DNA of 63,411 nucleotides from a virus: the IMG/VR virus record IMGVR_UViG_3300030106_000472, positions 1-63,411 of that record; one strand, written 5' to 3'. Position numbers and translations under genes: made by a program. Position 1 is the first letter of the stretch. Every line of letters begins with the position of its first letter. Below are positions 3,604 to 44,528 of this stretch, piece by piece. The notes under the pieces were generated by a model. The model had not been told where the DNA came from and searched no databases. It saw only the letters and a list, made by a program, of their open reading frames with translations.

Positions 3604-4230
3604 TTATTTATATTCTACCCATCCTGTAGCTATATATTTTTCTCCGCTTAGTGGTGGATTACCTCTATGTATGTGGGTAAAGTACGCAGGAAAAATTAAC
3701 ATACGACCTTTTTTAGGTTTAATTCTTGTATTTTGATGCAAAAACTCAGTTTCGCCACCTTCTTCTACATCGTTCAAAAATAAAGACCATGCAAGAACTC
3801 TATTTCTATGAAGAGAGCCTGTGTTTTCTGCGTGCCACTGATGATATCCTTCTCCTGGTAACGTTTTTTGTACCTTTCCTTCAAACACAACTAAGTTATC
3901 TACTAAAACAGGGCAATATTTTTCTGCATAAATTTTTAAAATTACTTCATGCATAAATTTTGTAAACCCGTGAACGTGTAAATTAAACTTAGTTTCTTCA
4001 AGCGGTAGTGCACCTTCTGCACCAAAATTACCAAAACCAACAGAAGTGTCTGCTTTTTCTAAAGTATTATTTGTATCGTATTGGTTTCTTGTTAAAGCGT
4101 GTCCCCGTTGTTTCATTACCTCAAAATGATGTAAAAACTCTTGACAATTATCGTCTTTAAAAAAGTCATCGAATATTGCTATATGGTCTTTTCTAAAATC
4201 AACATTACCATGTATGTCTTTATTCGTCAT
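3604..4230 (-). CDS. 2-oxoglutarate/Fe(II) oxygenase, prolyl-4-hydroxylase-like
   Basis: The C-terminal half has the double-stranded beta-helix pattern of P4H-type oxygenases: HQWHAEN supplies the His-x-acid iron ligand pair, GGETEF follows the next strand, THIHRG supplies the distal His, and GEKYIATGW the 2-oxoglutarate-binding Lys region. Proteins of this group are common in marine phages; their substrates are mostly unknown. An earlier ATG at 4257 exists, but 4230 (MTNKD) has a GGGA purine run upstream and overlaps the preceding gene by only 11 nt, so I prefer it (208 aa). It sits between lysis genes and terL. Confidence 0.8.
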   Translation of the reverse strand: MTNKDIHGNVDFRKDHIAIFDDFFKDDNCQEFLHHFEVMKQRGHALTRNQYDTNNTLEKADTSVGFGNFGAEGALPLEETKFNLHVHGFTKFMHEVILKIYAEKYCPVLVDNLVVFEGKVQKTLPGEGYHQWHAENTGSLHRNRVLAWSLFLNDVEEGGETEFLHQNTRIKPKKGRMLIFPAYFTHIHRGNPPLSGEKYIATGWVEYK

Positions 4231-4585
4231 CTTTATCGTATTCCCTGTAATACTCAACTATGGATAAAATGTTTTTAGTGTACCTAGTTATATCAGCCAT
4301 GTTCATCGATAAATTTTCATATTGTTGCGTGGTTAAAGCATAGTAGGCAACCGCAGGAGCTTTACCTTCTTCAACGAGTTGTAAATATTCAGCCATGATT
4401 TCTGGTGTGAGGACTTTCCATTCAACACCAACGGCTTGAATCTCCATTGGTAATGGTGGGTGGTACATAGGTGCAGGTAACGCAATCGTATTCACCTCAA
4501 CAGGTTTAGTTGGTACTAACGAACAACCTGTAACAAAGAAGAATGAGCTTAGCAAAACTAAATGGTAGGAATTATTGATCTTCAT
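4220..4585 (-). CDS. Outer-membrane lipoprotein, probable o-spanin (Rz1-like)
   Basis: The N-terminus is a lipoprotein signal: a charged start, hydrophobic LVLLSSFFFVTG, then Cys21 in the lipobox VTGC. A Pro-rich segment (PAPMYHPPLP) follows, typical of outer-membrane spanin subunits. The rest is helical and polar (121 aa in all). The gene is 14 nt overlapped with a gene encoding an inner-membrane coiled-coil protein of i-spanin type, the expected two-gene arrangement. Spanins fuse inner and outer membranes in the last step of lysis of Gram-negative hosts, so this also supports a Gram-negative host. Confidence 0.7.
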   Translation of the reverse strand: MKINNSYHLVLLSSFFFVTGCSLVPTKPVEVNTIALPAPMYHPPLPMEIQAVGVEWKVLTPEIMAEYLQLVEEGKAPAVAYYALTTQQYENLSMNMADITRYTKNILSIVEYYREYDKDDE

Positions 4586-15799: not shown

Positions 15800-16165
15800 C
15801 TACCAATCCCACCCTGTATGAGGAGCAACTTTTTGGTTATCTGACGCTAATTTGATTTCACGATCACTTAACCATTCATTAAATGCTCTTTGTGTTTGAT
15901 CAATATCTGAATAGAGTTGTTTAAATTCTGACCATTTATTACGTGCAACGTGCACACCATAGTAGTAATCACCATCACCTAACTTACAACGTGTGATAAT
16001 TTGCCACATACGTTGTTTTGTAATATCGTATTCTTTTCCTAGTTCTTCTAATGTAATTTCTGAATTATTCCATTTATCATACATATCTCTGTATCTAATG
16101 GAGTTTTCTTTTGCTTTTTGTTGTGAGATACCTTTCATGTTTTTATTTCCTTTGTTTCGCCCCAT
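15800..16165 (-). CDS. Helix-turn-helix protein resembling sigma70 region 4
   Basis: 121 aa. ITLEELGKEYDITKQRMWQII (about 37-57) has the spacing of a sigma region 4 helix-turn-helix. The C-terminus is Trp-rich with no further motif. No sigma region 2 is present, so it is not a full sigma factor; a regulator or anti-host DNA-binding protein is possible. ATG 16165 has AGGTG upstream and overlaps polA by 31 nt; ATG 16138 is the alternative. Confidence 0.6.
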   Translation of the reverse strand: MGRNKGNKNMKGISQQKAKENSIRYRDMYDKWNNSEITLEELGKEYDITKQRMWQIITRCKLGDGDYYYGVHVARNKWSEFKQLYSDIDQTQRAFNEWLSDREIKLASDNQKVAPHTGWDW

Positions 16166-18003
16166 GACACACCTAGTTCTTGATCCACTAATAGGGGAAC
16201 AGCAAGTTCGACACAGTTCTCCATTATTCTTGTTACTGTGTTAGCTTGTTCTGTGTTCTCTATTGAAATATCAACTTCATCGTGGACTTGTAGGTGAGGA
16301 ACTATTCCTTCCTCCCATAAACCTATCATTGCTAACTTAGTCATGTCAGCAGCAGAGCCTTGTATTAAACGATTTAGAGCCTTGTATGTGTATGACCTTT
16401 TTAAGTCTTCACCATATTTTTCTTTTGCCTCATCTAGAGGTAGAGGTAGAGTGCGTTCATATCTGCTTTCCCACAAATCGAAACGACAGTGTCTACCTGC
16501 GAACGTTTTGATATAGCCACGTTCCATAGCCACCCTTGCACATTGGTCTTGTAGAGCTCGAATAAAAGGAACGTTAGCGTGATACTGCTGAAATAAACTT
16601 TCAGCTTCTGTATCATCTATACCTAGTTCCTTAATTAACTTTTCTTTACCCATTCCATAACTTAATCCTAGATTAATTGTCTTAGCCTGTTTACGTGGTA
16701 TGTTAGCCATGTCTGCAACTATTTGATGAAAGTCTGCGTTATCGTCTCTGTATTGAGCGACTGCATTCTCAGCACCACTTAGTTTCATTTGATTAGCGTA
16801 ATGCACTGTTAATCTAGGTTCTTGTTGTGAATAATCAAACACACCCCACTGACACCCTTCTTCAGGAATAAACAACGAACGTATAAGGTTGCCTATTTCT
16901 GGGTCACGTGCAGGGACTTGTTGTAGATTAGGATTACTATAACTAAATCTACCACTGACTGTGCCGCCACGATCATTACGCATAGGATGTGCTTCTGCAT
17001 GTATCCTACCGTTAAATGCGTGTTCCATAATCATCTTATCGATAAACGTAGTTCTAGCTTTGTTGAGTTTTCTAGCTCTAACAATTAATTGCGGAAGTTC
17101 ATGTTCGTGACCTTCTAACCAGTCTTTTTGAAAACTAGCCATTCCCTTTTCTGTGCGAGGGAACCACAATTTATTTTTAGTAAAAATATTTTCAAGAGAA
17201 GCATTAGCCCATAGATTAACATCACTACCATACTTACGCTTTATCTCTACTTGTATTTTCTGTTCCTCAGTCGATAGTTGTTTACTAACTACTTCGGCTT
17301 TTTCTTCGTCTACTCTAACACCTCTCCATCGCATTTCTAATAGTAGAGGAATCAGCTTAGACTCCATTTCAAGTATTTTATCTAGTCCTTGTTCAGCTAT
17401 TTCTAGTTTGAGTTTATTCCATAACTTTAATGTAAGTGCTGCATCTTGTTGACCGTAAGGTCCAACATATTTAGCATGTAGCTTATACATTTCTGACTTA
17501 GGGTTGATACCGAAAGCCAACGCTGCATCTTGTAATAAAGACTCATCTTTCTTTTCATCACAGTAAGCAACACCTAAGTTATCAAGTGAATAAGAAAACC
17601 TGTTCTCGTTTATTAAGGGAGCCGCAACAATCGTATCGAGTATTTTACCTTTTACAATAATGCCTTCTCTTCTTAACCACCCTACATCGTAGAGAGCATT
17701 ATGAAATATAACGTCTCTCTTAGTAGAGTTGAGTAGATTTGTTAACCAACGTAGAACAATACCTTCATCTAGATTACCACCACCTTCATGACGGATAGGA
17801 AAATAACCAGACCAATTCTCTGTTGCTACTCCAACACCCACAATATGCCCACGACCTGTAGCCCATCCTGGACCACAAGTCGTTAGGTGAGGGTCATAAG
17901 TTTCTAAATCGATAGCCACTGTCTCTGTCTCAGAAAACTGAGGAAAGACATCAGGCACTGTCCAGGAACTTTCAGGAGCGAAAAGAGAATTCTGCAAGAT
18001 CAT
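16135..18003 (-). CDS. polA: Family A DNA polymerase with 3'-5' exonuclease domain
   Basis: 622 aa. The exonuclease domain begins AIDLETYD (Asp32, Glu34) and includes NALYDVGWL. The polymerase domain has motif A DYSQQEPRL (Asp390), motif B RKQAKTINLGLSYG (437-450) and motif C QVHDEVD (His574, Asp575). There is no 5' nuclease domain, as usual for phage PolA. The residue equivalent to E. coli Phe762 is Leu445, a variant that studies of viral PolA have linked to temperate or slower replication. It starts ATGA-coupled to the gene upstream and is surely the replicative polymerase here. Confidence 0.95.
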   Translation of the reverse strand: MILQNSLFAPESSWTVPDVFPQFSETETVAIDLETYDPHLTTCGPGWATGRGHIVGVGVATENWSGYFPIRHEGGGNLDEGIVLRWLTNLLNSTKRDVIFHNALYDVGWLRREGIIVKGKILDTIVAAPLINENRFSYSLDNLGVAYCDEKKDESLLQDAALAFGINPKSEMYKLHAKYVGPYGQQDAALTLKLWNKLKLEIAEQGLDKILEMESKLIPLLLEMRWRGVRVDEEKAEVVSKQLSTEEQKIQVEIKRKYGSDVNLWANASLENIFTKNKLWFPRTEKGMASFQKDWLEGHEHELPQLIVRARKLNKARTTFIDKMIMEHAFNGRIHAEAHPMRNDRGGTVSGRFSYSNPNLQQVPARDPEIGNLIRSLFIPEEGCQWGVFDYSQQEPRLTVHYANQMKLSGAENAVAQYRDDNADFHQIVADMANIPRKQAKTINLGLSYGMGKEKLIKELGIDDTEAESLFQQYHANVPFIRALQDQCARVAMERGYIKTFAGRHCRFDLWESRYERTLPLPLDEAKEKYGEDLKRSYTYKALNRLIQGSAADMTKLAMIGLWEEGIVPHLQVHDEVDISIENTEQANTVTRIMENCVELAVPLLVDQELGVSWGETKEIKT

Positions 18004-18318: not shown

Positions 18319-18678
18319 TTAGTCCTCCTCTCTGTTTTCTTCAACAGAGTAATTTACATCATCAGCTTCTTCTACTAGGTTTTCTATATTAGTAGTATTA
18401 GTCATGATGTGTTCTTCAGTTAATAATAAATACCTACGCAAATCCCGTATATCATCGAGTAGACCTGCCTCGCCTTTATAGACTTCACCTGCCTCGAATA
18501 TATCCCAACCATGCTTTTCAGCTTGGTGCTCGATCCTATCGAACTTACGTGCTAACATCATAAAAGCACCTACACCTCCACGACGTTTCCAAGAGTCGCC
18601 ATACGACGTTTCGGCTCGTTTAAGAGCTTCTAAATCGTTTTGAGCAGACTCTTTCATTTTTTCCCATTTATTACTCAT
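18319..18678 (-). CDS. Conserved phage-type protein of the nucleotide region (119 aa)
   Basis: The N-terminal half has YGDSWKRRGGVGAFMMLARKFDRIE and the middle DIRDLRRYLLL, a pattern I associate with small conserved proteins of marine phages. Its function is not known. Mostly helical and charged. It overlaps the thymidylate-synthase-family gene by 8 nt. Confidence 0.7.
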   Translation of the reverse strand: MSNKWEKMKESAQNDLEALKRAETSYGDSWKRRGGVGAFMMLARKFDRIEHQAEKHGWDIFEAGEVYKGEAGLLDDIRDLRRYLLLTEEHIMTNTTNIENLVEEADDVNYSVEENREED

Positions 18679-19717
18679 GAGTTTCTCCTTCGTCCGTTTT
18701 GTTAATAATCGTCTTGTCTCTTTTACGGACCCAATCGAAACAAGCCGTTCTCCAATCAGAAGCTTTTATCAAATTTATCTTGTCGTAGACTTCTTTAAAA
18801 TTCTTCATTTTATATGCTGCATAAACCTCCATCATAGGAATCGCTATATCAGTAAACGCGGGGTTGACCCAACCGTGATCATAAGAACTTATGTCCATAG
18901 GATGCATATTAAAAAATCTATTAAGTTCCCAATCTAACACAAACATATCTTTGAATAATAAACTAGGCTTATAATCCTTTAGAGTATCATAAGGATTCTT
19001 TATATCTCTATACGTGTATACATCTATCTCCATATGTTTAACTTTGTCCCAAACAGGGTTCAAATAAATATGAAAACTATCACTAACTTGTCTATACACA
19101 CCAACCTCGACCTCTAGATGAGCAGCTATGTATTCTTGTAATACTGACATGTGAACCACGTTAGCACCATAAGCCCCCCACAACATATCGTTTGATCGAT
19201 TACATACTGTCATGTTTAATTTGTTATCTCGTATCTTAAAATAAATGTTAGTATTACAAGGAACATCTTTGCCTTGTTTATCTAAATCATGAACTGCATC
19301 CCACATTTGTAAAACAGCACGTCTGTCTTCAGGATTCTTTTGTAACATTTTAACAATAACATCTAACTGATTTTTAAGAAAATACGTTCTCCATCTATAA
19401 CCATAGGCTCCCCATAAAGTCTCGCCATCATCTGAAAAATCTGCCATAGATTTAACAAAATAAGTTAAGGGTTTTAAATCGTTATGTCCTGCTAACATCC
19501 AAAGACTTTCTACGAAGTGGAAAAAAGGATTAGCATCTCTTTGTTTAATTAAACATACTCGTTCACAAGGTTTACTATAAACTGTTGTGACAGGCTCTAA
19601 AGCCTCATATGTTGTTCCATTACGACTTTCTTGTACTCTATAAGATGTATCATCTAAAAATAAATCGATACCAAGTAACATAGCATCGTTTACATTTCTT
19701 GCGTTAATCACCCTCAT
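18671..19717 (-). CDS. Thymidylate synthase family enzyme: dTMP synthase or dUMP hydroxymethylase
   Basis: 348 aa. The ThyA-type core is clear: DRRAVLQMWD, the catalytic Cys154 in DVPCNTN, CNRSNDMLWG with the phosphate-binding Arg174-Ser175, NVVHMSVLQEY and DSFHIYLN (Asp213, His216, Tyr218). Asn186 sits where Asn selects dUMP; dCMP hydroxymethylases carry Asp there. Phage members of this family make either dTMP or 5-hydroxymethyl-dUMP and the motifs alone do not decide. The coupled neighbour at 19922, of the 5-hmdU-kinase/pyrophosphorylase type, favours the hydroxymethylase. Confidence 0.85.
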   Translation of the reverse strand: MRVINARNVNDAMLLGIDLFLDDTSYRVQESRNGTTYEALEPVTTVYSKPCERVCLIKQRDANPFFHFVESLWMLAGHNDLKPLTYFVKSMADFSDDGETLWGAYGYRWRTYFLKNQLDVIVKMLQKNPEDRRAVLQMWDAVHDLDKQGKDVPCNTNIYFKIRDNKLNMTVCNRSNDMLWGAYGANVVHMSVLQEYIAAHLEVEVGVYRQVSDSFHIYLNPVWDKVKHMEIDVYTYRDIKNPYDTLKDYKPSLLFKDMFVLDWELNRFFNMHPMDISSYDHGWVNPAFTDIAIPMMEVYAAYKMKNFKEVYDKINLIKASDWRTACFDWVRKRDKTIINKTDEGETHE

Positions 19718-19935
19718 AATGTATCCTGATACCCGTCTATTATTTCACCGATAAGAAAACTTATCTCACTTTCATTTAATCCAGGAAGTTTTCTCTTTAT
19801 AAAAGCTACAGCCATTTTATGGTCAGCAGCAACCTTTAAAAAGAAAGCAACTTCTAAGAACTGGGTATAATATATGTCAACCGAGTCGCCCCAATCTTCT
19901 AAAAGCTCAACTGAATATTCGTTAACTTTTCCCAT
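19714..19935 (-). CDS. Small acidic protein inside the base-modification cassette (73 aa)
   Basis: Not recognised. Helical with aromatic residues (YYTQFLEVAFFLKVAADHKMAVAFI). It overlaps the gene before it by 14 nt and the gene after it by 4 nt, so it is translated with the thymidylate-synthase-family enzyme and the helical protein. AAGGAG precedes the start. A subunit or accessory role in that pathway is an inference from position. Confidence 0.7.
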   Translation of the reverse strand: MGKVNEYSVELLEDWGDSVDIYYTQFLEVAFFLKVAADHKMAVAFIKRKLPGLNESEISFLIGEIIDGYQDTL

Positions 19936-20854
19936 ATTTACTTTCTCCTTCTATTAAATCTTCTACTATAGGAAGATTATTTTGTTTATATATAGACCTT
20001 GTTCTGCCTTCTCCTCTGAGAATACGTGAGTATTTATCGAACTCACAAAGTCCTCCTTCTATTTCGCGTAACTCATATAATCTATCGTTACGCATGGTTA
20101 TATGTGGTGGTAGTCTATCCACAACCAGTGCATATAACTCTTGCATTTCTCTATTCCAATCATGACTACGATGAGAAAAATCTAATTTTCTGCCTGTTAA
20201 CCTGTTAAGTCCTCGCATAGCTCCTGGACCTGCATTAGCCCACGTCATAATATCTGTAGCTTCATCCAACACATACGTATGTCTTAAATCAGTAACTACC
20301 TCGTATGCCATAAATGGACCCATGTATGGGTATTGTGTTAGTAGAGTCCAAGCAGACTTTAAAGAACTTATTCCCTCTCCTTTATCAAACTCTAAGCGTT
20401 TAATTAACCAAGTCTTTTCTGCCCATAAATTATTTATACAATCAACAACACCTGTAACCTTATCCATACCGTTTGGTGTTTTAATAATATAAGAACCAGT
20501 AATCCACTGAGGTTGTTCTGTTATAAGTTTGATAGCTTTATCACCGTCCCAGTTCACTAATAAGTCATTCTCTATAAGCGTTCTACCTGTAGGTATAAAA
20601 TTAAACCAACGAAAAATAATCGTAGCCATAATAACATCTGAACTATTTGCTAGAGGTTCTCTAATATGTGTTCTAAACCACCTAGTCGTTCTGTCATCTT
20701 CTCGGAATACTTGACAAAATTTAAACTCTTGCAAAATAGGGTCGTCTGTCCAAGGTGGAGAAAATTTAGACTCTTCTTTTTGAAGTCTAATCTTCTCCCT
20801 CTCTGTTTGCCAATAGCAAAAACGATTTACTTCTTCTGCAAGAAACTCAGTCAT
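19922..20854 (-). CDS. 5-hmdU DNA kinase / glutamyl-putrescinyl-thymine pyrophosphorylase-type helical protein
   Basis: 310 aa from ATG 20854 (MTEFLAEEV), a TAATG start with AAGGA upstream; a TTG start 21 nt earlier is less likely. FCYWQTEREKI, PPWTDDPILQEFKF and FCQVFREDDRTTRW (12-59), then WANAGPGAMRGLNRL (205-219), match the helical domain found in phage 5-hmdU DNA kinases and thymine pyrophosphorylases. That group is proposed to be related to HhH DNA glycosylases. No P-loop kinase domain is present. It would act on hydroxymethyluracil in DNA to build a hypermodified thymine. Confidence 0.75.
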   Translation of the reverse strand: MTEFLAEEVNRFCYWQTEREKIRLQKEESKFSPPWTDDPILQEFKFCQVFREDDRTTRWFRTHIREPLANSSDVIMATIIFRWFNFIPTGRTLIENDLLVNWDGDKAIKLITEQPQWITGSYIIKTPNGMDKVTGVVDCINNLWAEKTWLIKRLEFDKGEGISSLKSAWTLLTQYPYMGPFMAYEVVTDLRHTYVLDEATDIMTWANAGPGAMRGLNRLTGRKLDFSHRSHDWNREMQELYALVVDRLPPHITMRNDRLYELREIEGGLCEFDKYSRILRGEGRTRSIYKQNNLPIVEDLIEGESKYGKS

Positions 20855-21765
20855 TACTTTTTCCTTAAAACCCAAGAACAGTTGTTAGCGTACTCAGGGT
20901 ATGGTGTTGCTGCTACTACACGTAAAAACTGTCTACCATACCTAGACTCTAACATTTCTAATTGTTCAGGTGACCATGCTCTAGGGTATCGTTTTACATT
21001 TGAATAAGTAGGTATTCCATCTACAGAAGGTTCTACTTGTTCCTTCATAGCTTTCCTTAGATTAGGAAGTTGTATAAACGTTCCTGTAACATCTACTATT
21101 TCAAAATTACGTTCTAGTTCTTGTTTAAGTTCTTCAAAACCCCACTCATATACGTGGTCTTCAGGTAGTTTATCGTTAGAACCGTCATGGTTAGGTGTAG
21201 ACACAAAAGCCAATGCGTTAGGTCTCATTGTCCTAGCGGCATCGTCTAACCAAGGACCAACAAACTGTCTCCCCATGTGTTCAATAACTTCAGTAGTCCA
21301 GAAAAAGTCTATACTTTCATCAGCTATATCAAATATTTGTTTAGGGTTTTGAAGGTCTCTTATTACAGTTAAGTCTTGTATTCTTATTTCTCCGTTAAAG
21401 TTTTTAAACCATGTAGAGTCTTTTAAAGGCTCTCCACCATTAGACCAAAAAGGGTTTTCTAACTCACATGCAGGATCAATATCGTAGCCAAGATAAGAAG
21501 CAATAACATCTGATTTCTTTATGACATATGCTTTATATAAATTTCTTAAAGTCCAACACTCACCACAACCTACTTCAAAAGTATCTAGTGGTCTACCTAA
21601 CCGCTTAGCTTCTTCAATACACATAGAAGCTATCTTATCGAAACGACTCATATGAGCTATCTCATCTGGTCTCCAGTTTGCTAGTACACCTGCACTAGCT
21701 ATATCCATTCTTGTATTTTTACTGTCGTTTTCATTAACAGTTAATTTCTTTCTTATTGATGACAT
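20854..21765 (-). CDS. SAM-dependent methyltransferase-like protein
   Basis: 303 aa from ATG 21765; a TTG start 21 nt upstream is possible. Rossmann motif I reads FEVGCGECWTLRNL (near 63-76), followed by LGYDIDPA and later DFFWTTEVIEHMG, FVSTPNHDG. There is no DNA-methylase DPPY-type catalytic motif, so the substrate is open: a small molecule, protein or the modified base. It is coupled by TAATG on both sides to the cassette genes. Confidence 0.75.
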   Translation of the reverse strand: MSSIRKKLTVNENDSKNTRMDIASAGVLANWRPDEIAHMSRFDKIASMCIEEAKRLGRPLDTFEVGCGECWTLRNLYKAYVIKKSDVIASYLGYDIDPACELENPFWSNGGEPLKDSTWFKNFNGEIRIQDLTVIRDLQNPKQIFDIADESIDFFWTTEVIEHMGRQFVGPWLDDAARTMRPNALAFVSTPNHDGSNDKLPEDHVYEWGFEELKQELERNFEIVDVTGTFIQLPNLRKAMKEQVEPSVDGIPTYSNVKRYPRAWSPEQLEMLESRYGRQFLRVVAATPYPEYANNCSWVLRKK

Positions 21766-22256
21766 TATTGATTTACCTCCCACCAACTTGGTTTATTTCT
21801 ACCCTTTTCCCATTTAGCGTAATGTTTTTCGTTTATAACATAATTACGATAAGCGAGAATAGAGTCCTCGTTTTTATACTCATCTGGCATAGCTTGTGCT
21901 ACGTCAGTCATGAGACCTCTAGTAATGTTTTTAGGCATTACATATAAAGCATCAGCTAATTTTTTAACACTAGCATGAGTACGTTTGTAGCGATAAGAAT
22001 ACTCATTACCTAACGCTAAAAAATGTTTATAGAGCCACCAGTAGTTACCACTACATTCTCTAGCCCATATGGTGCACGGATGATTCATGTAAGCTTTCTT
22101 GTATAAACCAACTTCGTCTGCATAATCATCTCCGTCTAATATTCGGTGAGCAGTGCATAACATCTGTGCAGTTTCTAGAGGCATCTTGACCAACATCTTG
22201 TCGGGCTGAGCTTTAGCAGAAACTACAGGATCCTCACTAAAATAAAATATGTTCAT
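21765..22256 (-). CDS. Conserved protein heading the modification cassette (163 aa)
   Basis: MNIFYFSEDPVVSAKAQPDK, LVKMPLETAQMLCTAHR, MNHPCTIWARE and NYWWLYKHFLALGNEY look like a strongly conserved phage family that I cannot name. Invariant-looking His, Cys, Trp and Arg suggest an enzyme. It has a promoter (22296-22325) and the shared AGAAAGGAGAAA leader, and heads the coupled run that continues to polA. It may act in nucleotide or base modification, by position only. Confidence 0.7.
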   Translation of the reverse strand: MNIFYFSEDPVVSAKAQPDKMLVKMPLETAQMLCTAHRILDGDDYADEVGLYKKAYMNHPCTIWARECSGNYWWLYKHFLALGNEYSYRYKRTHASVKKLADALYVMPKNITRGLMTDVAQAMPDEYKNEDSILAYRNYVINEKHYAKWEKGRNKPSWWEVNQ

Positions 22257-22331: not shown

Positions 22332-23828
22332 TTATATTTGATAGTGCCGTGGCGATTTAGGCTCAATCAGATATAAATTTTCTTTTGTCCTCGTTATACC
22401 AACATAAAACACCCTGTTTTCATCATCAGGATTTTGTTGATAGTTTTTATATACTCTAGTCGTTATGTCCGTTAACAGCACTACGTTGGTAGCTTCGCCT
22501 CCTTTAGCGGCATGAATAGTAGACAATCGTATACGTGGTTGTTTTGTTATTTTTTCTCCTCTACGTAACATAGCTCTTATATAACTTATCTCGCTAGGAC
22601 TTAGTAGAGTAAAAACGTCATACCAATGACCATCAGGTAAATCAGAAAAGTGTTCTTTTAGGTCTTGATATTGAAATGTTAAATTAGAATCTAACATATC
22701 TAACTTCTTATGTTTTTCTACTTTTACAAACTTTAATATATTAGCTGATTCGGTAAGACTTATAGACTCTCCTTTTCGTAACCTTTCCCAATATATGACA
22801 GCTCTCACTTTTGCTTCAGATATACTTGGTCTGCCTTTTACCTCGAAAAACCATCCCTCGTTTCTACAATACTCATCTACGTCTTCTAATAAGTAATTAG
22901 TTCTAGCTAAGACTAACCAATCTCCTTTTTCCATGTTTACTAGTTCTATGTTAGGTTCCCACCTAACCATCCCTTGTTCTTTTCTAGGTGTCCATTCCTT
23001 ATATATCCTAGATCGAACTTGACCAATACATTGTCTAGCGACCTCATGAACAGCAGCAGGGACACGATAAGACTGCTCTAACACTAAAGCATCTTTTGAG
23101 TTTTGTATCAAATAATCAACATCGGCTCCTGCCCACTTGTATATAGCTTGATCATCATCACCTGCTACATATATCTTCTTAGCTTTTTCTGCAATCTTGC
23201 GTACTACAGCCCATTGTAAAGGTGATAAATCTTGAGCTTCGTCTACAAACATAACATTTAGTTCTGGTATATCTCCTTCTTCTAAAAACTTATGTAACAT
23301 ATCCGTGTAGTCAACTAACAACCTGTCTTCTTTAAATAACTGTAATCCTTTAGCAAAACGCTCTAGTTCAAACCAACCCACAGCGTCTTCTACATCATGC
23401 CATTGTTCTTTTAACGGCACATTACGCATCCTAGCTAAGTTCTCTATAAACGCTAATCTATCATCATGAGTCATACCAAATATATGACCATCATCAGATG
23501 TCGTTCTTCCTGTAAGTCGTAAATTAAGTTTGTCGTTTAAGTCTTTTATGTCTGTATGACTTACTACACTTTCTCTTGTTAAACCTAGTTGTCTAAAAGC
23601 TAACGAGTGTAACGTTCTAAAGAAAGGAAGTTCTTTATCGCTGATATTGAACTTAGTCATGGCTCTTTGCTTACCTTCGTTCACTGCTTTTTTAGTAAAT
23701 GTAAAAAACCCGATAGAATCAGGGCTAGTGCCGTTTTGTAATTCGTCTTCTATAAGCCCGAGTAGAGTGCTCGTCTTGCCTGTTCCAGGAGGTCCAAGAA
23801 TAACTTGTGTGTGGCTAGGTAACGTCAT
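22332..23828 (-). CDS. UvrD/Rep-type superfamily 1 DNA helicase
   Basis: 498 aa. Motif I GPPGTGKTS (12-20), motif II FVDEAQDLSPLQW, motif III AGDDDQAIYKWAGA, motif IV-like LEQSYRVP, motif V STIHAAKGGEA and motif VI FYVGITRTKENLYLI are all present in order. It is shorter than bacterial UvrD, closer to phage Dda or RecD-like sizes. It unwinds DNA ahead of or behind the fork. It is ATGA-coupled with the AlkB-like gene and follows the primase gene, so it belongs to the replication operon. Confidence 0.9.
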   Translation of the reverse strand: MTLPSHTQVILGPPGTGKTSTLLGLIEDELQNGTSPDSIGFFTFTKKAVNEGKQRAMTKFNISDKELPFFRTLHSLAFRQLGLTRESVVSHTDIKDLNDKLNLRLTGRTTSDDGHIFGMTHDDRLAFIENLARMRNVPLKEQWHDVEDAVGWFELERFAKGLQLFKEDRLLVDYTDMLHKFLEEGDIPELNVMFVDEAQDLSPLQWAVVRKIAEKAKKIYVAGDDDQAIYKWAGADVDYLIQNSKDALVLEQSYRVPAAVHEVARQCIGQVRSRIYKEWTPRKEQGMVRWEPNIELVNMEKGDWLVLARTNYLLEDVDEYCRNEGWFFEVKGRPSISEAKVRAVIYWERLRKGESISLTESANILKFVKVEKHKKLDMLDSNLTFQYQDLKEHFSDLPDGHWYDVFTLLSPSEISYIRAMLRRGEKITKQPRIRLSTIHAAKGGEATNVVLLTDITTRVYKNYQQNPDDENRVFYVGITRTKENLYLIEPKSPRHYQI

Positions 23829-24409
23829 AAACCACTTCTAAAAGTTAAATTGATTCTTTCACCTGCTTTTTCTAAATCAGGAACAGCGTGAGTAGACGTC
23901 ATTTGATTATGTCCGTCAAACATTAAAACATCACCATGCTCTAGTAAAAAGAACTGTTCATTTATTAAAAAGTTTTCTTTCCTGACCTCTATCTCACTGG
24001 TGTCTGTTTGCATTTTAATTGAGTTCTCATACGTTCTTTGAACAAAAACTCTAGGAGCACCTAACGAAATTGAAACAACGATATCGTCTAATGTAGGAAC
24101 CGTGTCTGAATGATGAGGAATCCCTTTGCCATCAGTACCGTAGTAACCACATAAACAAAACGTAAATTGTTTATCAACTCCTAACTCATTCCACACAAGT
24201 TTTTCTGCTTTTTGTTTGATATGATACATAGAGTCAGTCCAAGGAGTAGGCTTATACAACTTACCTGCGTAGTCAAAAGAAGAACTACCAAAACCTTTTG
24301 TAGGTCTGCCTTTTACAACTTTGCCTTTAAACTTTCTTTCTCTAGGCTTGTCCCATTCTGTAATATTTGGGTCGCAGTTTTCAAAATATTTTTTAATATA
24401 AATGATCAT
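23825..24409 (-). CDS. AlkB-like 2-oxoglutarate/Fe(II) dioxygenase
   Basis: 194 aa. Iron ligands His100 and Asp102 in IPHHSDTV, distal His174 in TSTHAVP, and Arg185/Arg191 in GERINLTFR. SISLGAPRVFV and HGDVLMF complete the AlkB pattern. The family removes alkyl groups from damaged nucleic acids by oxidation. Repair of phage DNA is the default role; oxidation of a modified base is a possibility given the nearby cassette. Coupled to helicase and primase genes. Confidence 0.85.
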   Translation of the reverse strand: MIIYIKKYFENCDPNITEWDKPRERKFKGKVVKGRPTKGFGSSSFDYAGKLYKPTPWTDSMYHIKQKAEKLVWNELGVDKQFTFCLCGYYGTDGKGIPHHSDTVPTLDDIVVSISLGAPRVFVQRTYENSIKMQTDTSEIEVRKENFLINEQFFLLEHGDVLMFDGHNQMTSTHAVPDLEKAGERINLTFRSGL

Positions 24410-39711: not shown

Positions 39712-41445
39712 TCAAAAAGTGTATATTTTTAAAGGTTTTTCTTTACCTTTTACTTTTATTGGTTTTAACGGTCTTAGTGTTATACCACAGTAAAGCTCTG
39801 TTTCTTTCCCTATTAGTATGTTTACACCTGCTTCTTTAGTTGCTGATTCTAGTCTAGCAGCGGTATTAACAGCATCTCCTATGGCTGAATAATCGAACCT
39901 AGTATCACTACCCATGTTGCCTATAACCGCTTCACCTGTATTTACACCTACACCAATTTCTACACCAATATCAGCGTTTATTATATTTTCTTGTATTTCT
40001 TTTGCACATTTCACAGCTACTTGTTCGTGATGTTTTAAATCCATAGGTGCATTAAATATTGCCATCATAGCATCGCCAATATACTTGTCTACCATTCCTC
40101 CATATTTTTGTACTGCATCAGATTGTATTGTTAATGCTTTATTCATTATCGAAGTTACTTCTTCTGGTGAAAGTGTTTCAGATAAAGCTGTGAATCCTCT
40201 AACGTCTGTGAACAAGAAAGTACACCTTCTTTTTTCACCACCTAATTTCAATAAGCTAGGGTCTTTTTGTAAACGTTTAACTTGTCTAGGGTCAAGATAA
40301 TGTTCAAACTGTTTTTTAATTTGTTGTCTAAGTTTGTATTGTTCTCTAAATCTTAAATAAAAAGCTATAGCTCCTGCGATAAACTGCGAAACTAAAGACC
40401 ACGTAACATCTATCAAAAGACCTGTGGTTATCGTGTAGTAACCGTATACGCCCGTTAAAGCCATCGTAAGTAAAGCTAAGCTTACGCCCCACGTTATCCC
40501 TAAATAGCTTATAAACGCCCATACGAGCACCACAGACACTATAAATATTAAAAGTTCTAAAGCTAATGCGTAATCAGGTATATAAGGACTATCTTGTATA
40601 AGAATGCTTTCTGCAAGTGCTGCTTGTATTTTATGTGGTTCAAGTAAACCAACAGGAGTTGCAACTTGCGGCATTACTCCATTAGCGGTAACGCCTACAA
40701 ATACGAATTTACCGTTTACGTCCATTTCCTGTAAATCTGTTTGTGGTGTATCTACCCAACTAATCCACTTACGACCAAGACTATCTGTTTTAACTGGTGG
40801 TATTCCTCTAACAGCTATTTCTTGTACACCATTTTCATTAGTCGTAATAATATACGTACGGGCTTCTGTTAAACTTTTTAACACATGTGTTCCGAAAGAA
40901 GCAGTCCAACCGTCAGGAGTTCTTAATAAAAGTGGAATACGTCTAACTAACTGGTCTACTTCAGTAGGGGCTATAGCAACTCCTTGTGGTACGTCATCGT
41001 ATAGATAAAAATTTCGTTTTACTCCTGTAGAAGAAAGACCACCAACATCAGGTCCTTTAATTACTGTTCCTGTTGTTTTAGGATAGTTTTGATTACCGTC
41101 TTCAAACGTAGCTATTACACTTGGTGCATAACCTAACGAACTAGCAAATCTTTGGTCTCCGCCCATTCTGTCTGCTTGTGGAAAAGAAATAACCCAACCA
41201 ACACCTATGGCTCCTTTGCCTAATATTTCTAACTGTATATTAGCTAAACGTTCTCTAGGTAATGGATAACCCCCTTCTCTTTCTACATCGTCTTCAGTTA
41301 TATTTAGAATAACAAAATTACCAGACGGTTCTTGTTCTTGTATTAAGGCATCAAACGTTTTTAATTTAAGTATTTCTGTCGGCGTTGTTTGAAATAATAA
41401 AGGTAATACAAGTATTGCTAATATAGGTATTATCAGTTTTTTCAT
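39712..41445 (-). CDS. CHASE2-domain class III adenylate/guanylate cyclase
   Basis: 577 aa. N-terminal membrane segment (4-18), an extracytoplasmic CHASE2 sensor domain (about 25-290; FDALIQ, VILNITEDDVEREGGYPLPR, GKFVFVGVTA), three membrane helices (about 292-366), then a cyclase catalytic domain (about 405-577). Metal Asp414 (FTDVRGF) and Asp458 (YIGDAMM), Lys454, and transition-state Asn527/Arg531 (DAVNTAARLE) are all intact. Ser520 stands where class IIIb enzymes usually have Thr and IIIa Asp. ATP to cAMP is the likely reaction. It is the last gene of the CsgF-CsgG-curlin-FecR run. Such an intact receptor cyclase is very unusual in a phage. Confidence 0.9.
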   Translation of the reverse strand: MKKLIIPILAILVLPLLFQTTPTEILKLKTFDALIQEQEPSGNFVILNITEDDVEREGGYPLPRERLANIQLEILGKGAIGVGWVISFPQADRMGGDQRFASSLGYAPSVIATFEDGNQNYPKTTGTVIKGPDVGGLSSTGVKRNFYLYDDVPQGVAIAPTEVDQLVRRIPLLLRTPDGWTASFGTHVLKSLTEARTYIITTNENGVQEIAVRGIPPVKTDSLGRKWISWVDTPQTDLQEMDVNGKFVFVGVTANGVMPQVATPVGLLEPHKIQAALAESILIQDSPYIPDYALALELLIFIVSVVLVWAFISYLGITWGVSLALLTMALTGVYGYYTITTGLLIDVTWSLVSQFIAGAIAFYLRFREQYKLRQQIKKQFEHYLDPRQVKRLQKDPSLLKLGGEKRRCTFLFTDVRGFTALSETLSPEEVTSIMNKALTIQSDAVQKYGGMVDKYIGDAMMAIFNAPMDLKHHEQVAVKCAKEIQENIINADIGVEIGVGVNTGEAVIGNMGSDTRFDYSAIGDAVNTAARLESATKEAGVNILIGKETELYCGITLRPLKPIKVKGKEKPLKIYTF

Positions 41446-42563
41446 TAATCACTTTGAGTAATAGTAATTACGCTATCACTTCCTCCATTAACTTTAATTA
41501 TATTAGATACCCCGTCCTGTATCAAAATAACCGTATAAGCATTACCACCATCTAAATCAACTCGTACACTTTCATTTACTTGTCTTCGTAAGCTAATAAC
41601 ATTGCCTGTTATTAAAGTTGTTATCTGTGTATCTGGGTCTTTACCTAAAAGAGTTCCTGATATTTGTGTGCTTGTTGCTTGTGCTAATTGATCTTCTTCT
41701 TCTGCTACAGCTAATGCATCTAATACATTTAATAAATCTTCTAAATAATTTACGTCAAGATAATTTATATCTAGTTCAGTAAATTCTAAATTATCTTCTT
41801 TTAAAAAATCTTCTGCAAGATAGTCTATGTCTAAGTCGTTAAAATCTAATACGCTATCTGTTTGTGCTGTAGTAGTTTCTTCTTCAATACTTTGTTCTTC
41901 TTTGGGAGGAGTGACGATGAGCATATTATCTATTACATCTAACGTTAAATCCAGGATAACAGGTTTAGTAGGAGCAGATTCAAATACACTTACTGTAGTT
42001 GCTTCATACGGTTTGTTTAATATAACGGTTCCCATAGCAGTAACTACTTCTATTTCTCCACTAGATAAACCTAAAGGGTCTGGAAGTAAAATAATAAGTG
42101 AACGTCCTAGTTCGTCAACAGTCGCTGTGAAATCTGTTCCACGAATTGCTATGTTTGCCGTAGGTGTTTTAAGTGTGATGTTTTGTTTATCTATACGGTT
42201 TAGATTACCTGTAATAAACCTTGCTGTGCCAAGACCAAACGTAAGAGCCATTTTTGCTTTACTAGGATCAGGGTCATAGATGTATTCATCTATAAGAAGT
42301 TGAGAGTGTTCGGTAAGTTTTACTGTAGAATTATCAAGAAATGTAATAGCCATACGACCATTTGTTGTTATGGCTTCATCGTTGCTTTGAATAGCAAACT
42401 TTAAATTAGCTTCGTATGGTTTGTCTCTTAGTATTTGTGCTGAACCGTTTAATTCAGATATGCCACCAATATCAGCATCCGAGACTTGTGCCTTGATCGT
42501 TTTGAACGACACACACAGAAGAAGCAGCATTACCACCGACGGATATAATTTTAAGCCAGTCAT
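41445..42563 (-). CDS. Exported FecR-domain protein
   Basis: 372 aa with a signal peptide (hydrophobic VVMLLLLCVSFKTIKAQ). The FecR domain spans about 30-200 (LNGSAQILRD, NGRMAITFLDNSTVKL, TPTANIAIRGTDFTATVD). An acidic Leu/Asp-rich linker with LDIDYL-like repeats (about 230-290) and a beta-rich end follow. FecR-domain proteins act in the periplasm, often in signalling or envelope assembly. TAATG couples it to the cyclase gene, as in some bacteria where FecR and CHASE2 genes are neighbours. The start overlaps the curlin-like gene by 92 nt; ATG 42530 is an alternative. Confidence 0.8.
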   Translation of the reverse strand: MTGLKLYPSVVMLLLLCVSFKTIKAQVSDADIGGISELNGSAQILRDKPYEANLKFAIQSNDEAITTNGRMAITFLDNSTVKLTEHSQLLIDEYIYDPDPSKAKMALTFGLGTARFITGNLNRIDKQNITLKTPTANIAIRGTDFTATVDELGRSLIILLPDPLGLSSGEIEVVTAMGTVILNKPYEATTVSVFESAPTKPVILDLTLDVIDNMLIVTPPKEEQSIEEETTTAQTDSVLDFNDLDIDYLAEDFLKEDNLEFTELDINYLDVNYLEDLLNVLDALAVAEEEDQLAQATSTQISGTLLGKDPDTQITTLITGNVISLRRQVNESVRVDLDGGNAYTVILIQDGVSNIIKVNGGSDSVITITQSD

Positions 42564-43203
42564 TATCTTGGGTACTCAGTTGTTGGATATTAAATGTTCT
42601 TTGTCCGCCTGTATGATCTAGGTAAAAATATCCACCTGCTGAAGCATTTACACCTGTTCCTAAATAAGTAACTGTGTTATCACTACCGTCAATATCCATA
42701 AAGTTAGTAGCCCCATCAATATTTATTGTTGATGTGACCGTGTTATTAGATCCTTGTATTATCCAGTCTAAATCTAAAGATGCTGCTAACGCTGTCGTTC
42801 CTTGATTTAAAGTGAACGTATTGCTACTGCCTGTAACAGCAACATTGTGGTTAGAGCTATTAGCCCCATAAGTATTCGTTGGGTCTACTTGTATAGTGAA
42901 ATTATTAGTTGAGCCTGTAAAGTTGTAAGCTCCTGTAAAACTATTAGCTGTTATATCTCCAAGAAATTTATTAGTTGCACCAATCATATTGATGTCTAAT
43001 GTCATTCCTGTTCCATCTAAATCGAAAGGATTCAAGCTGCCTGATGTTGAATTAAGACCACCAATAATATTAGAAATACCTAGTTGCTCTAGGTCTATAT
43101 TGGCACCAGTTCCTGACTGATCTACATATATCTCATTATCAGCCGCAAATAACGGAAATAAAGTAAGACATAACAAAAGTTGTATGCACTTCTTCATCAT
43201 CAT
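42472..43203 (-). CDS. Secreted curlin-like repeat protein
   Basis: 243 aa with a signal peptide ending near PLFAADNE. The first repeat, NEIYVDQSGTGANIDLEQLG, has the Q-x-G-x-G-x-N...Q pattern of curlin (CsgA/CsgB) repeats. The rest has degenerate Asn/Thr/Gly repeats (SNTFTLNQG, SNNTVTSTINIDG) that suggest a stacked beta solenoid. A Cys is the last residue. The adjacent csgG and csgF genes make it the likely secreted substrate. Too diverged to be called csgA. Confidence 0.7.
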   Translation of the reverse strand: MMMKKCIQLLLCLTLFPLFAADNEIYVDQSGTGANIDLEQLGISNIIGGLNSTSGSLNPFDLDGTGMTLDINMIGATNKFLGDITANSFTGAYNFTGSTNNFTIQVDPTNTYGANSSNHNVAVTGSSNTFTLNQGTTALAASLDLDWIIQGSNNTVTSTINIDGATNFMDIDGSDNTVTYLGTGVNASAGGYFYLDHTGGQRTFNIQQLSTQDNDWLKIISVGGNAASSVCVVQNDQGTSLGC

Positions 43204-43207
43204 AATT

Positions 43208-44044
43208 TCATTCTACCTTTTTTTCCTCGTTTTGTAAAACCCAATAACCTCTTTCATAACCTTGTTTAATTATTTCTAACACACCACCCTCAATAGCTTT
43301 CATTAAAGCTATGGTAGATGACTCGTTTCTTGCGTTACCCATTTCTATTTCTACTAGTTCAGTACCTGCTTCAATAAATCTAAATACGTCATTAGATTTG
43401 CCATAACTAAAAATAGTTTTCTGGCTTAATACTTCTAACAATACTTCTCCTGTAGCTACAGAAACCATTCTAAGACTAACTGTAATATTATCTTCCCTAT
43501 ATTGAACGCTAGTACCAATACCTAAATATCTTGCACCAGAACCCCCAGATTCTAAATTAGATTCATAAGATATAACAGCACCTTCTATTAAAATACCTGC
43601 GAATAATAACGGTGCTAATTGTTTTTTCTTTTCTTCTTCGCTTGCAAACTGTTCCCTTGCTGAACGTATTAATTGTCTTTCTTTAGTTAGGTTATCTAAA
43701 CCAACTCTTTCAACAACTCTAAAAAACTGACCATTACCTGCGTGTTTTAAAGCTCGGATAAGAAGTGCGTTTGGTTGTTGGGTTATTGCGGTACTAAACA
43801 AAGCAAACTCACTGTTACTTTTACGTTGCCCTGTTTGATCAGTAAATGCCGTAGGATATACAGCAACAACAGGACTGACTTTAGGAACTTCTACATCACG
43901 TAAATAAGGAGATTGTAGTTCTTGTATAGAAACTACATTATGTGCTTGAAACCTATGTTCGTACGTATCTTCAAGTTGATCAAAAGTAGAACAACTAGAA
44001 AGTAAAAGTACCGATAGGAATAACGATCGTTGTAATTGTACCAT
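43208..44044 (-). CDS. csgG: CsgG-type outer-membrane curli secretion channel
   Basis: 278 aa lipoprotein: lipobox LLSSC with Cys18. VVAVYPTAFTDQTGQRK, ALIRALKHAGNGQFFRVVER, RQLIRSAREQ, LLFAGILIEGAVISYES, ARYLGIGTSVQYREDNITVSLRMVS and ATGEVL match CsgG across its length, including the region of the membrane hairpins. In bacteria nine subunits form the pore that exports curlin. Start at 44044 overlaps csgF by 50 nt. Confidence 0.85.
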   Translation of the reverse strand: MVQLQRSLFLSVLLLSSCSTFDQLEDTYEHRFQAHNVVSIQELQSPYLRDVEVPKVSPVVAVYPTAFTDQTGQRKSNSEFALFSTAITQQPNALLIRALKHAGNGQFFRVVERVGLDNLTKERQLIRSAREQFASEEEKKKQLAPLLFAGILIEGAVISYESNLESGGSGARYLGIGTSVQYREDNITVSLRMVSVATGEVLLEVLSQKTIFSYGKSNDVFRFIEAGTELVEIEMGNARNESSTIALMKAIEGGVLEIIKQGYERGYWVLQNEEKKVE

Positions 44045-44528
44045 CTGACTCAGTTATAGTTAGGGTTAATGTTGTGCCATCGCTTGTATATTCAATGGTG
44101 TTGCCCTCCAAGGTTATTGTACCTGAATTTTGAGGTGTTTCCCCAAACAGGTTTGCCACTAACTGTCTAGATAACTCAGCATACACTCTTGATTCAAGAT
44201 TACGCATAAATCTTGCAAGAGTAGAATTTTCTTTTTCTCTTTTAATTTCGTCTTGTAACGCTTTTATTTCTTCTTTGAGTGTAAGTTTACGACTAAATTC
44301 TTGATTCTCTATCGTTAGGTAATGTGATGATGTACCAACTCCGTTAAAACTAGGTGATTTAAATTTATGTACTATTTGGTCAGACCAAACATTTTGAACA
44401 AATATAGCTCCTAATAAAACTACACCAATAACACCGACTATACGAGCAATTAAAACTTTTTCAGCTTCTTGTTTTCTTTGTTTTAGTTCCGCGTTGCTTG
44501 GTCGTCCTCTTTTCTTTTTTATTGTCAT
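43995..44528 (-). CDS. csgF: CsgF-like protein with an N-terminal membrane anchor
   Basis: 177 aa. Residues 53-75 (VHKFKSPSFNGVGTSSHYL) resemble the mature N-terminus of CsgF, which plugs into CsgG. Residues 104-177 (LARFMRNLESRVYAELSRQL...ITESDGTITTIVIP) match the CsgF C-terminal half. Unlike E. coli CsgF it begins with a basic stretch containing the AT-hook-like KKRGRPSNAEL (5-15) and an uncleavable-looking membrane segment (26-46). That suggests anchoring in the inner membrane. GGAGG precedes the start. It overlaps csgG, so the two are made together. Confidence 0.75.
   Translation of the reverse strand: MTIKKKRGRPSNAELKQRKQEAEKVLIARIVGVIGVVLLGAIFVQNVWSDQIVHKFKSPSFNGVGTSSHYLTIENQEFSRKLTLKEEIKALQDEIKREKENSTLARFMRNLESRVYAELSRQLVANLFGETPQNSGTITLEGNTIEYTSDGTTLTLTITESDGTITTIVIPIGTFTF

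Follow-up and report, generated by a model that had tools for sequence, protein, structure and literature searches.

A methyltransferase in the kinase slot of a predicted thymidine hypermodification cassette from a marine virus

Introduction

The closest described relatives of the gene cassette analysed here, which lies on the minus strand of the virus record IMGVR_UViG_3300030106_000472 (63,411 bases; the whole record is called the window below), are those of the Pseudomonas phages M6 and PaMx11. They contain a dUMP-type enzyme of the ThyA family and an HMUDK_hel protein (HEL) in the same order and near polA, and the identity to the proteins of the window is 42-44% for ThyA and 37-43% for HEL. 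M6 and PaMx11 also possess a 5-hydroxymethyldeoxyuridine (5-hmdU) DNA kinase (PF18748), an amino acid:DNA transferase (PF18724) and tailoring enzymes, whereas the window has none of these and a predicted S-adenosylmethionine (SAM) methyltransferase (MT) is found in the kinase slot.

Other known systems share parts of the cassette. The HTVC023P-type pelagiphages have, like the window, a curli module, polA and a pair of ThyA and aG/PT-PPlase1; this pair was published in 2022 as a thymidine hypermodification system with an assumed M6-type function, and the main text of that paper contains no ‘methyltransferase’ and names a histidine kinase as its only kinase (PMC9599517). Cassettes of the type of Brevibacterium phage LuckyBarnes also combine HEL and a dUMP-type ThyA enzyme in one cluster, but have a glycosyltransferase (PF20691) where the window has MT. 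In the AXL3-type clusters (AXL3, PW916, MW202510, MW202621) the same MT subfamily is found near a hydroxymethylase; unlike the window, these clusters have a dCMP-type hydroxymethylase, their own nucleotide kinase, MazG and dCMP deaminase and no HEL, and their MT is about 25% identical to that of the window. In the literature searched we found no earlier account of the absence of kinase and transferase, of MT in the kinase slot, of exclusive HEL partner classes or of the link to AXL3-type clusters, and no paper which joins methoxymethyl bases with phage DNA.

The methyltransferase and the missing kinase

The three main genes of the cassette are as follows.

20854..21786 (TTG start, 310 aa) or from ATG 21765 (303 aa), minus strand: MT, class I SAM methyltransferase (Methyltransf_23 4.7e-6; Foldseek)
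19922..20875 (TTG start, 317 aa) or from ATG 20854 (310 aa), minus strand: HEL, HMUDK_hel protein (PF18723 2.1e-40; DNA-glycosylase-like model)
18671..19717, minus strand: ThyA-family enzyme, 348 aa, predicted dUMP 5-hydroxymethylase (phrog_5131 1e-109; active-site residues; D151)

In M6, PaMx11, Sonora and Pam3 a P-loop kinase is located just before HEL, with the amino acid:DNA transferase nearby. In the window and its relatives, METHYLTRANSFERASE stands instead where the 5-hmdU DNA kinase would be, and neither kinase nor transferase is present. MT has a SAM-binding fold with a Gly-rich E-V-G-C-G-E-C motif and Foldseek E-values down to 3e-10 against SAM methyltransferases; its match to Pfam Methyltransf_23 (26.9 bits) is just below the cut-off of 27. 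Across 33 relatives the MT proteins are 60-97% identical.

Using the HEL of the window as query, 80 IMG/VR loci were retrieved, and one gap was scored per locus. MT is found upstream of HEL in all 74 loci with enough sequence (abutting or overlapping in 69, further off in five), and ThyA follows HEL in all 78 loci with enough sequence; the cassette is therefore more than a chance arrangement. All 78 loci retrieved with MT (L087-L164) carry HEL, the two locus sets having many contigs in common. In cellular genomes a single MT relative was clear, from a metagenome bin of Maricaulis; one further match was weak.

This constancy bears on the possibility that plain 5-hmdU is the final base, in which case MT would act on another target and HEL would merely bind or protect 5-hydroxymethyluracil (5-hmU) DNA. 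SPO1-type phages do use 5-hmdU itself, unadorned, and the substrate assignment of MT is a prediction. We nevertheless consider such an end product rather unlikely, given the strong conservation of MT, its steady place adjoining HEL and the tie of its distant kin to hydroxymethylases.

Concerning the kinase and the transferase, none was found in the 37 HEL loci flanked by 9 kb at either end. Among 31 marine records (the window plus 30 long contigs related to it) there was no match to PF18748, to an eight-sequence kinase profile (the kinase-type controls were found with both) or to PF18724 (seven controls found); many records are fragmentary, and the absence rests on their number and not on single records. 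The PaMx11 kinase falls below the PF18748 cut-off and is found by the local kinase profile at 3e-76. A kinase hidden elsewhere in the window genome was also considered, and none was found. In RefSeq, PaMx11 and M6 have their 5-hmdU DNA kinases labelled ‘terminase small subunit’ (L002:8423-8992, L003:8447-9010).

An M6-type route would need a host or unrelated kinase to phosphorylate 5-hmdU in DNA, after which an amino acid-derived group would be added and methylated by MT. The homology of HEL and ThyA to the M6 and PaMx11 proteins speaks for this route. It is improbable, as both Pfam families are lacking from the marine records and the window has no tailoring homologue of the radical SAM, pyridoxal phosphate, flavin adenine dinucleotide or GNAT type.

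The ThyA-family enzyme

The ThyA-family enzyme has the complete catalytic set (C154, R174-S175-x-D177, N186, H216, Y218). At the base-selecting position it carries the uracil-type (dUMP) residue N186 and not the Asp of the cytosine type; M6, PaMx11, Sonora and Pam3 all have this Asn, and the GAN motif is found in all marine relatives read. Three residues N-terminal of the catalytic C154 lies D151, which in alignments corresponds to Leu143 of the E. coli thymidylate synthase and to an Asp in MilA; of 162 relatives, at least 149 have DxPCN, and the remainder were not read cleanly. The equivalent Asp145 of the T4 dCMP hydroxymethylase is required for activity and was proposed as the activator of the added water, while thymidylate synthases carry Leu at this position (PMC6400193). 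The same KDxPCN and RSND...GAN motifs are found in SPO1 gp29, annotated as a dUMP hydroxymethylase and the one protein covered by our SPO1 comparison.

Based on its PF00303 match (1.1e-22), the protein could be taken for an ordinary thymidylate synthase of a phage with normal thymine. This is very improbable: Asp151 stands where Leu is expected, MilA, a CMP hydroxymethylase, is the PDB entry that matches best and every NCBIfam thymidylate synthase model scores the protein below its cut-off. The hydroxymethylase signatures and the gene content of the cassette are well supported, and from these signatures we predict with high confidence that the enzyme is a dUMP hydroxymethylase. It is also very likely, judged from the sequences, that the phage DNA contains a base derived from 5-hmU.

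The HEL protein

HEL scores 139.3 bits against PF18723 HMUDK_hel (cut-off 25) and also matches phrog_2396 (5.9e-60); it is 35-45% identical to its homologues in M6, PaMx11, Sonora, Epa5 and Pam3. Fifteen residues are invariant over 13 HELs, drawn from loci with a kinase, a glycosyltransferase, a methyltransferase or no assigned partner. Sequence search gave no solved structure for HEL or MT. The structures nearest to the AlphaFold model of HEL (pLDDT 87, pTM 0.86) are those of the DUF2419 queuosine salvage enzyme, the PaMx11 gp46 glycinyltransferase (8z2n) and 8-oxoguanine glycosylases. Compared with 8z2n, 240 residues are aligned with an rmsd of 4.3 and a VIA Z of 10.4, and the 8-oxoguanine glycosylases reach Z about 10, a value which is not decisive for helical proteins. 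Sequence homology between HEL and the amino acid:DNA transferase was also considered; profile comparison gave nothing significant, though the folds are alike. From the model it is reasonable, but no more than that, to suppose that HEL presents the base in the manner of a DNA glycosylase, and a function of HEL as substrate presenter seems somewhat the better bet.

Partner classes of HEL

A wide HEL scan together with the known phages gave 257 HEL loci, a set which is skewed by the queries and includes repeated contigs. Sorted by partner, 180 contain MT, 35 the kinase, 17 the TET-associated glycosyltransferase (PF20691) and 25 an unidentified partner; after dereplication the numbers are 31, 27, 14 and 20 (none identified), respectively. 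Two partner classes are never found together (0 of 257). Outside the MT clade, kinase and glycosyltransferase would be expected to overlap about six times under independence and no overlap was observed, although related loci are not independent. Two narrow single-protein scans of six loci each served as controls. Nine of ten further glycosyltransferase calls were confirmed with Pfam, the exception (L193) being a weak profile match; the four sequences behind the glycosyltransferase profile are themselves Pfam matches. With this local profile no PF20691-type glycosyltransferase was found near HEL in the window.

On a quick HEL tree, some branches of which are long, the MT-associated proteins form one clade (support 99), located beside HELs of kinase and glycosyltransferase loci, including PaMx11. 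The supported branches require the kinase label to have changed at least six times and the glycosyltransferase label at least five times. As an inference from these classes, the 5-hydroxymethyl oxygen would be the simplest common acceptor of kinase, glycosyltransferase and methyltransferase.

Clusters of HEL, ThyA and the TET-associated glycosyltransferase without a kinase are found at L178:1762-5777 and in L242, L255, L171, L172, L199 and L201; for these we predict glycosylated 5-hydroxymethyluracil. Radical SAM genes directly adjoin HEL at L192:4622-5548, L201:4907-5965 and L260:6831-8165, and are possibly a further partner class.

Methyltransferases of the AXL3-type clusters

In the phage collection, MT homologues are found in five records: AXL3 (one genome, two copies), PW916 and two metagenome phages. 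All five have a ThyA-family hydroxymethylase at most three genes away. Their MTs align end to end with that of the window. Two residues of the window MT, His211 and Glu214, are conserved in distant homologues. The MT of AXL3 used as query retrieved 22 IMG/VR loci; with the four phages, a hydroxymethylase is present in all 25 loci with room, and HEL in none of these 25. Most loci also contain MazG, a nucleotide kinase and dCMP deaminase. In every case in which their motif was read, the hydroxymethylases are of the dCMP type (PYDV). In L173, L165, L166, L174 and L268-L289 the ThyA-family genes are annotated as thymidylate synthase or deoxyuridylate hydroxymethyltransferase, yet have Asp at the base-selecting position and look like dCMP hydroxymethylases.

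AXL3 DNA is cut by two of 37 restriction enzymes, both with A/T-only sites (PMC7504290). This fits a modified cytosine; the cutting pattern does not show that the resistance is due to MT, as plain 5-hydroxymethyldeoxycytidine resists many enzymes too.

The gene content of these clusters (MT, hydroxymethylase, nucleotide kinase and MazG, without HEL) is what supports the main rival explanation, namely that MT methylates a mononucleotide (5-hydroxymethyl-dUMP or its triphosphate) before polymerisation and that HEL has another role on DNA. In the marine phages, however, MT and HEL are inseparable, and the slot taken by MT belongs to a kinase which acts on DNA. We consider methylation of the mononucleotide unlikely.

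Proposed pathway

We propose that the cassette is a methyltransferase branch of thymidine hypermodification leading to a 5-hydroxymethyluracil-derived base. In the first step, which is supported by signatures, the ThyA-family enzyme would convert dUMP to 5-hydroxymethyl-dUMP. Host kinases would then raise this to the triphosphate, and the phage PolA would place 5-hydroxymethyl-dU into DNA, replacing some or all of the thymidine. Finally, HEL may bind the DNA and present 5-hmU, and MT may methylate the hydroxymethyl oxygen with SAM as donor, the product being 5-methoxymethyl-dU. Methylation of the hydroxyl is proposed because MT replaces the kinase in its slot and because MTs are tied to hydroxymethylases. 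Action of MT on the 5-hydroxymethyl group has about an even chance; the methyl ether and the part played by HEL are inferred, and the scheme as a whole is tentative, falling somewhat short of even.

Several points weigh against this pathway. The fold of MT is a broad one whose members use many acceptors, and its single clade on the HEL tree means that the slot replacement was one event. The fold match of HEL is moderate, with a best Foldseek E of 0.11, VIA Z about 10 and no clear winner. As the AXL3-type MT does its work in the absence of HEL, nucleotides may be the substrate of MT. Lastly, the T4 dCMP hydroxymethylase signature includes Ser or Thr two residues before the active-site Tyr, whereas the window enzyme has Gly103-Ala104-Tyr105. 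Since Gly-Ala-Tyr is found in M6, PaMx11, Sonora and Pam3 as well, the Ser-x-Tyr part of the signature is probably specific to cytosine enzymes.

In a broader and more doubtful form of the proposal, HEL would be an interchangeable module which targets 5-hydroxymethyl-dU for at least three hydroxyl-modifying enzymes; the MT form would give 5-methoxymethyl-dU in abundant pelagiphages, and the AXL3-type kin would give 5-methoxymethyl-dC.

The initial annotation, made without database searches, had read the cassette as one for 5-hydroxymethyluracil-derived bases, and this interpretation is partly supported. Its dUMP-type Asn186 was correct and the enzyme carries both dUMP and hydroxymethylase signatures; the HMM search it had proposed placed the helical protein in HMUDK_hel; and the P-loop kinase it did not see is missing from the 30 relatives too. 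The ‘methylated or otherwise new final group’ which it suggested is still the best guess, as MT fills the kinase slot. What did not hold was the fifth gene as a core member of the pathway.

Neighbouring genes and other features

The gene order on the minus strand is: an optional Pyr_excise-like gene, MT, HEL, a 73 aa gene, ThyA, a 119 aa gene, a 114 aa gene and PolA. Adjacent cassette genes overlap one another. The genes around the three main ones are listed here.

21765..22256, minus strand: Pyr_excise-like protein (pyrimidine dimer glycosylase family), 163 aa, optional neighbour (PF03013 1.4e-7; phrog_624 8.6e-57)
19714..19935, minus strand: 73 aa protein between HEL and the ThyA-family gene (no family above cut-off)
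18319..18678, minus strand: 119 aa conserved protein whose gene overlaps the stop of ThyA (in Pam3 and distant viral contigs, homologues adjoin ThyA)
16135..18003, minus strand: PolA, family A DNA polymerase (PF00476 2.5e-62), which adjoins the cassette in the relatives listed

The five reading frames and start-to-stop overlaps of the initial annotation were confirmed on this strand, with the starts of MT and HEL refined. For both genes the ATG (21765 and 20854) is more likely than the TTG 21 nt upstream, as suggested by the conserved N-termini (MSSIRKK in MT); each ATG shares one base with the stop of the preceding gene. The fifth gene, called a conserved unknown, is the Pyr_excise-like one; it is present in only 46 of 74 related IMG/VR loci and was rejected as a core pathway member. 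The genes assigned to 18671-22256 are all there, but the cassette continues past this edge with the 119 aa gene, which is probably a member. That gene stays beside ThyA whether the locus is of the kinase, the glycosyltransferase or the methyltransferase type, and its product has an invariant YG.SW..R.G.GAF motif. Membership in a known nucleotide-modification family was considered for this protein; neither Pfam nor NCBIfam gave a match to the window protein or any support for the idea. The 73 aa gene is kept in 50 of 78 related loci, and its product has no match above cut-off in the Pfam, PHROG and NCBIfam comparisons.

Away from the cassette, window positions 39712-44528 hold a curli/type VIII secretion module with CsgG (43208-44044; PF03783 9.7e-47), FecR (41445-42563) and an adenylate cyclase bearing CHASE2 (39712-41445), all three identified by Pfam; likely curli repeat and CsgF genes adjoin them, as in some HTVC023P-type pelagiphages. 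Together with polA and ThyA/HEL, this module fits a virus resembling HTVC023P-type pelagiphages with a type VIII secretion system (PMC9599517). Two 2OG-Fe(II) oxygenase genes are located at 23825-24409 and 3604-4257; one is AlkB-like (PF13532 8.9e-20) and the other matches 2OG-FeII_Oxy_3 (9.2e-13).

Implications

MT in place of the kinase suggests a DNA base so far undescribed. If the proposed pathway is true, a methyl ether would join the known bases of phage DNA, in a widespread group of ocean phages, and the assumption that ThyA with aGPT-PPlase1 means M6-type hypermodification in pelagiphages would be corrected. The methyltransferase reading may have a bearing, too, on the resistance of AXL3 DNA to restriction, so far unexplained. 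For the HMUDK_hel family, a purpose would be suggested: a single targeting protein which serves several chemistries.

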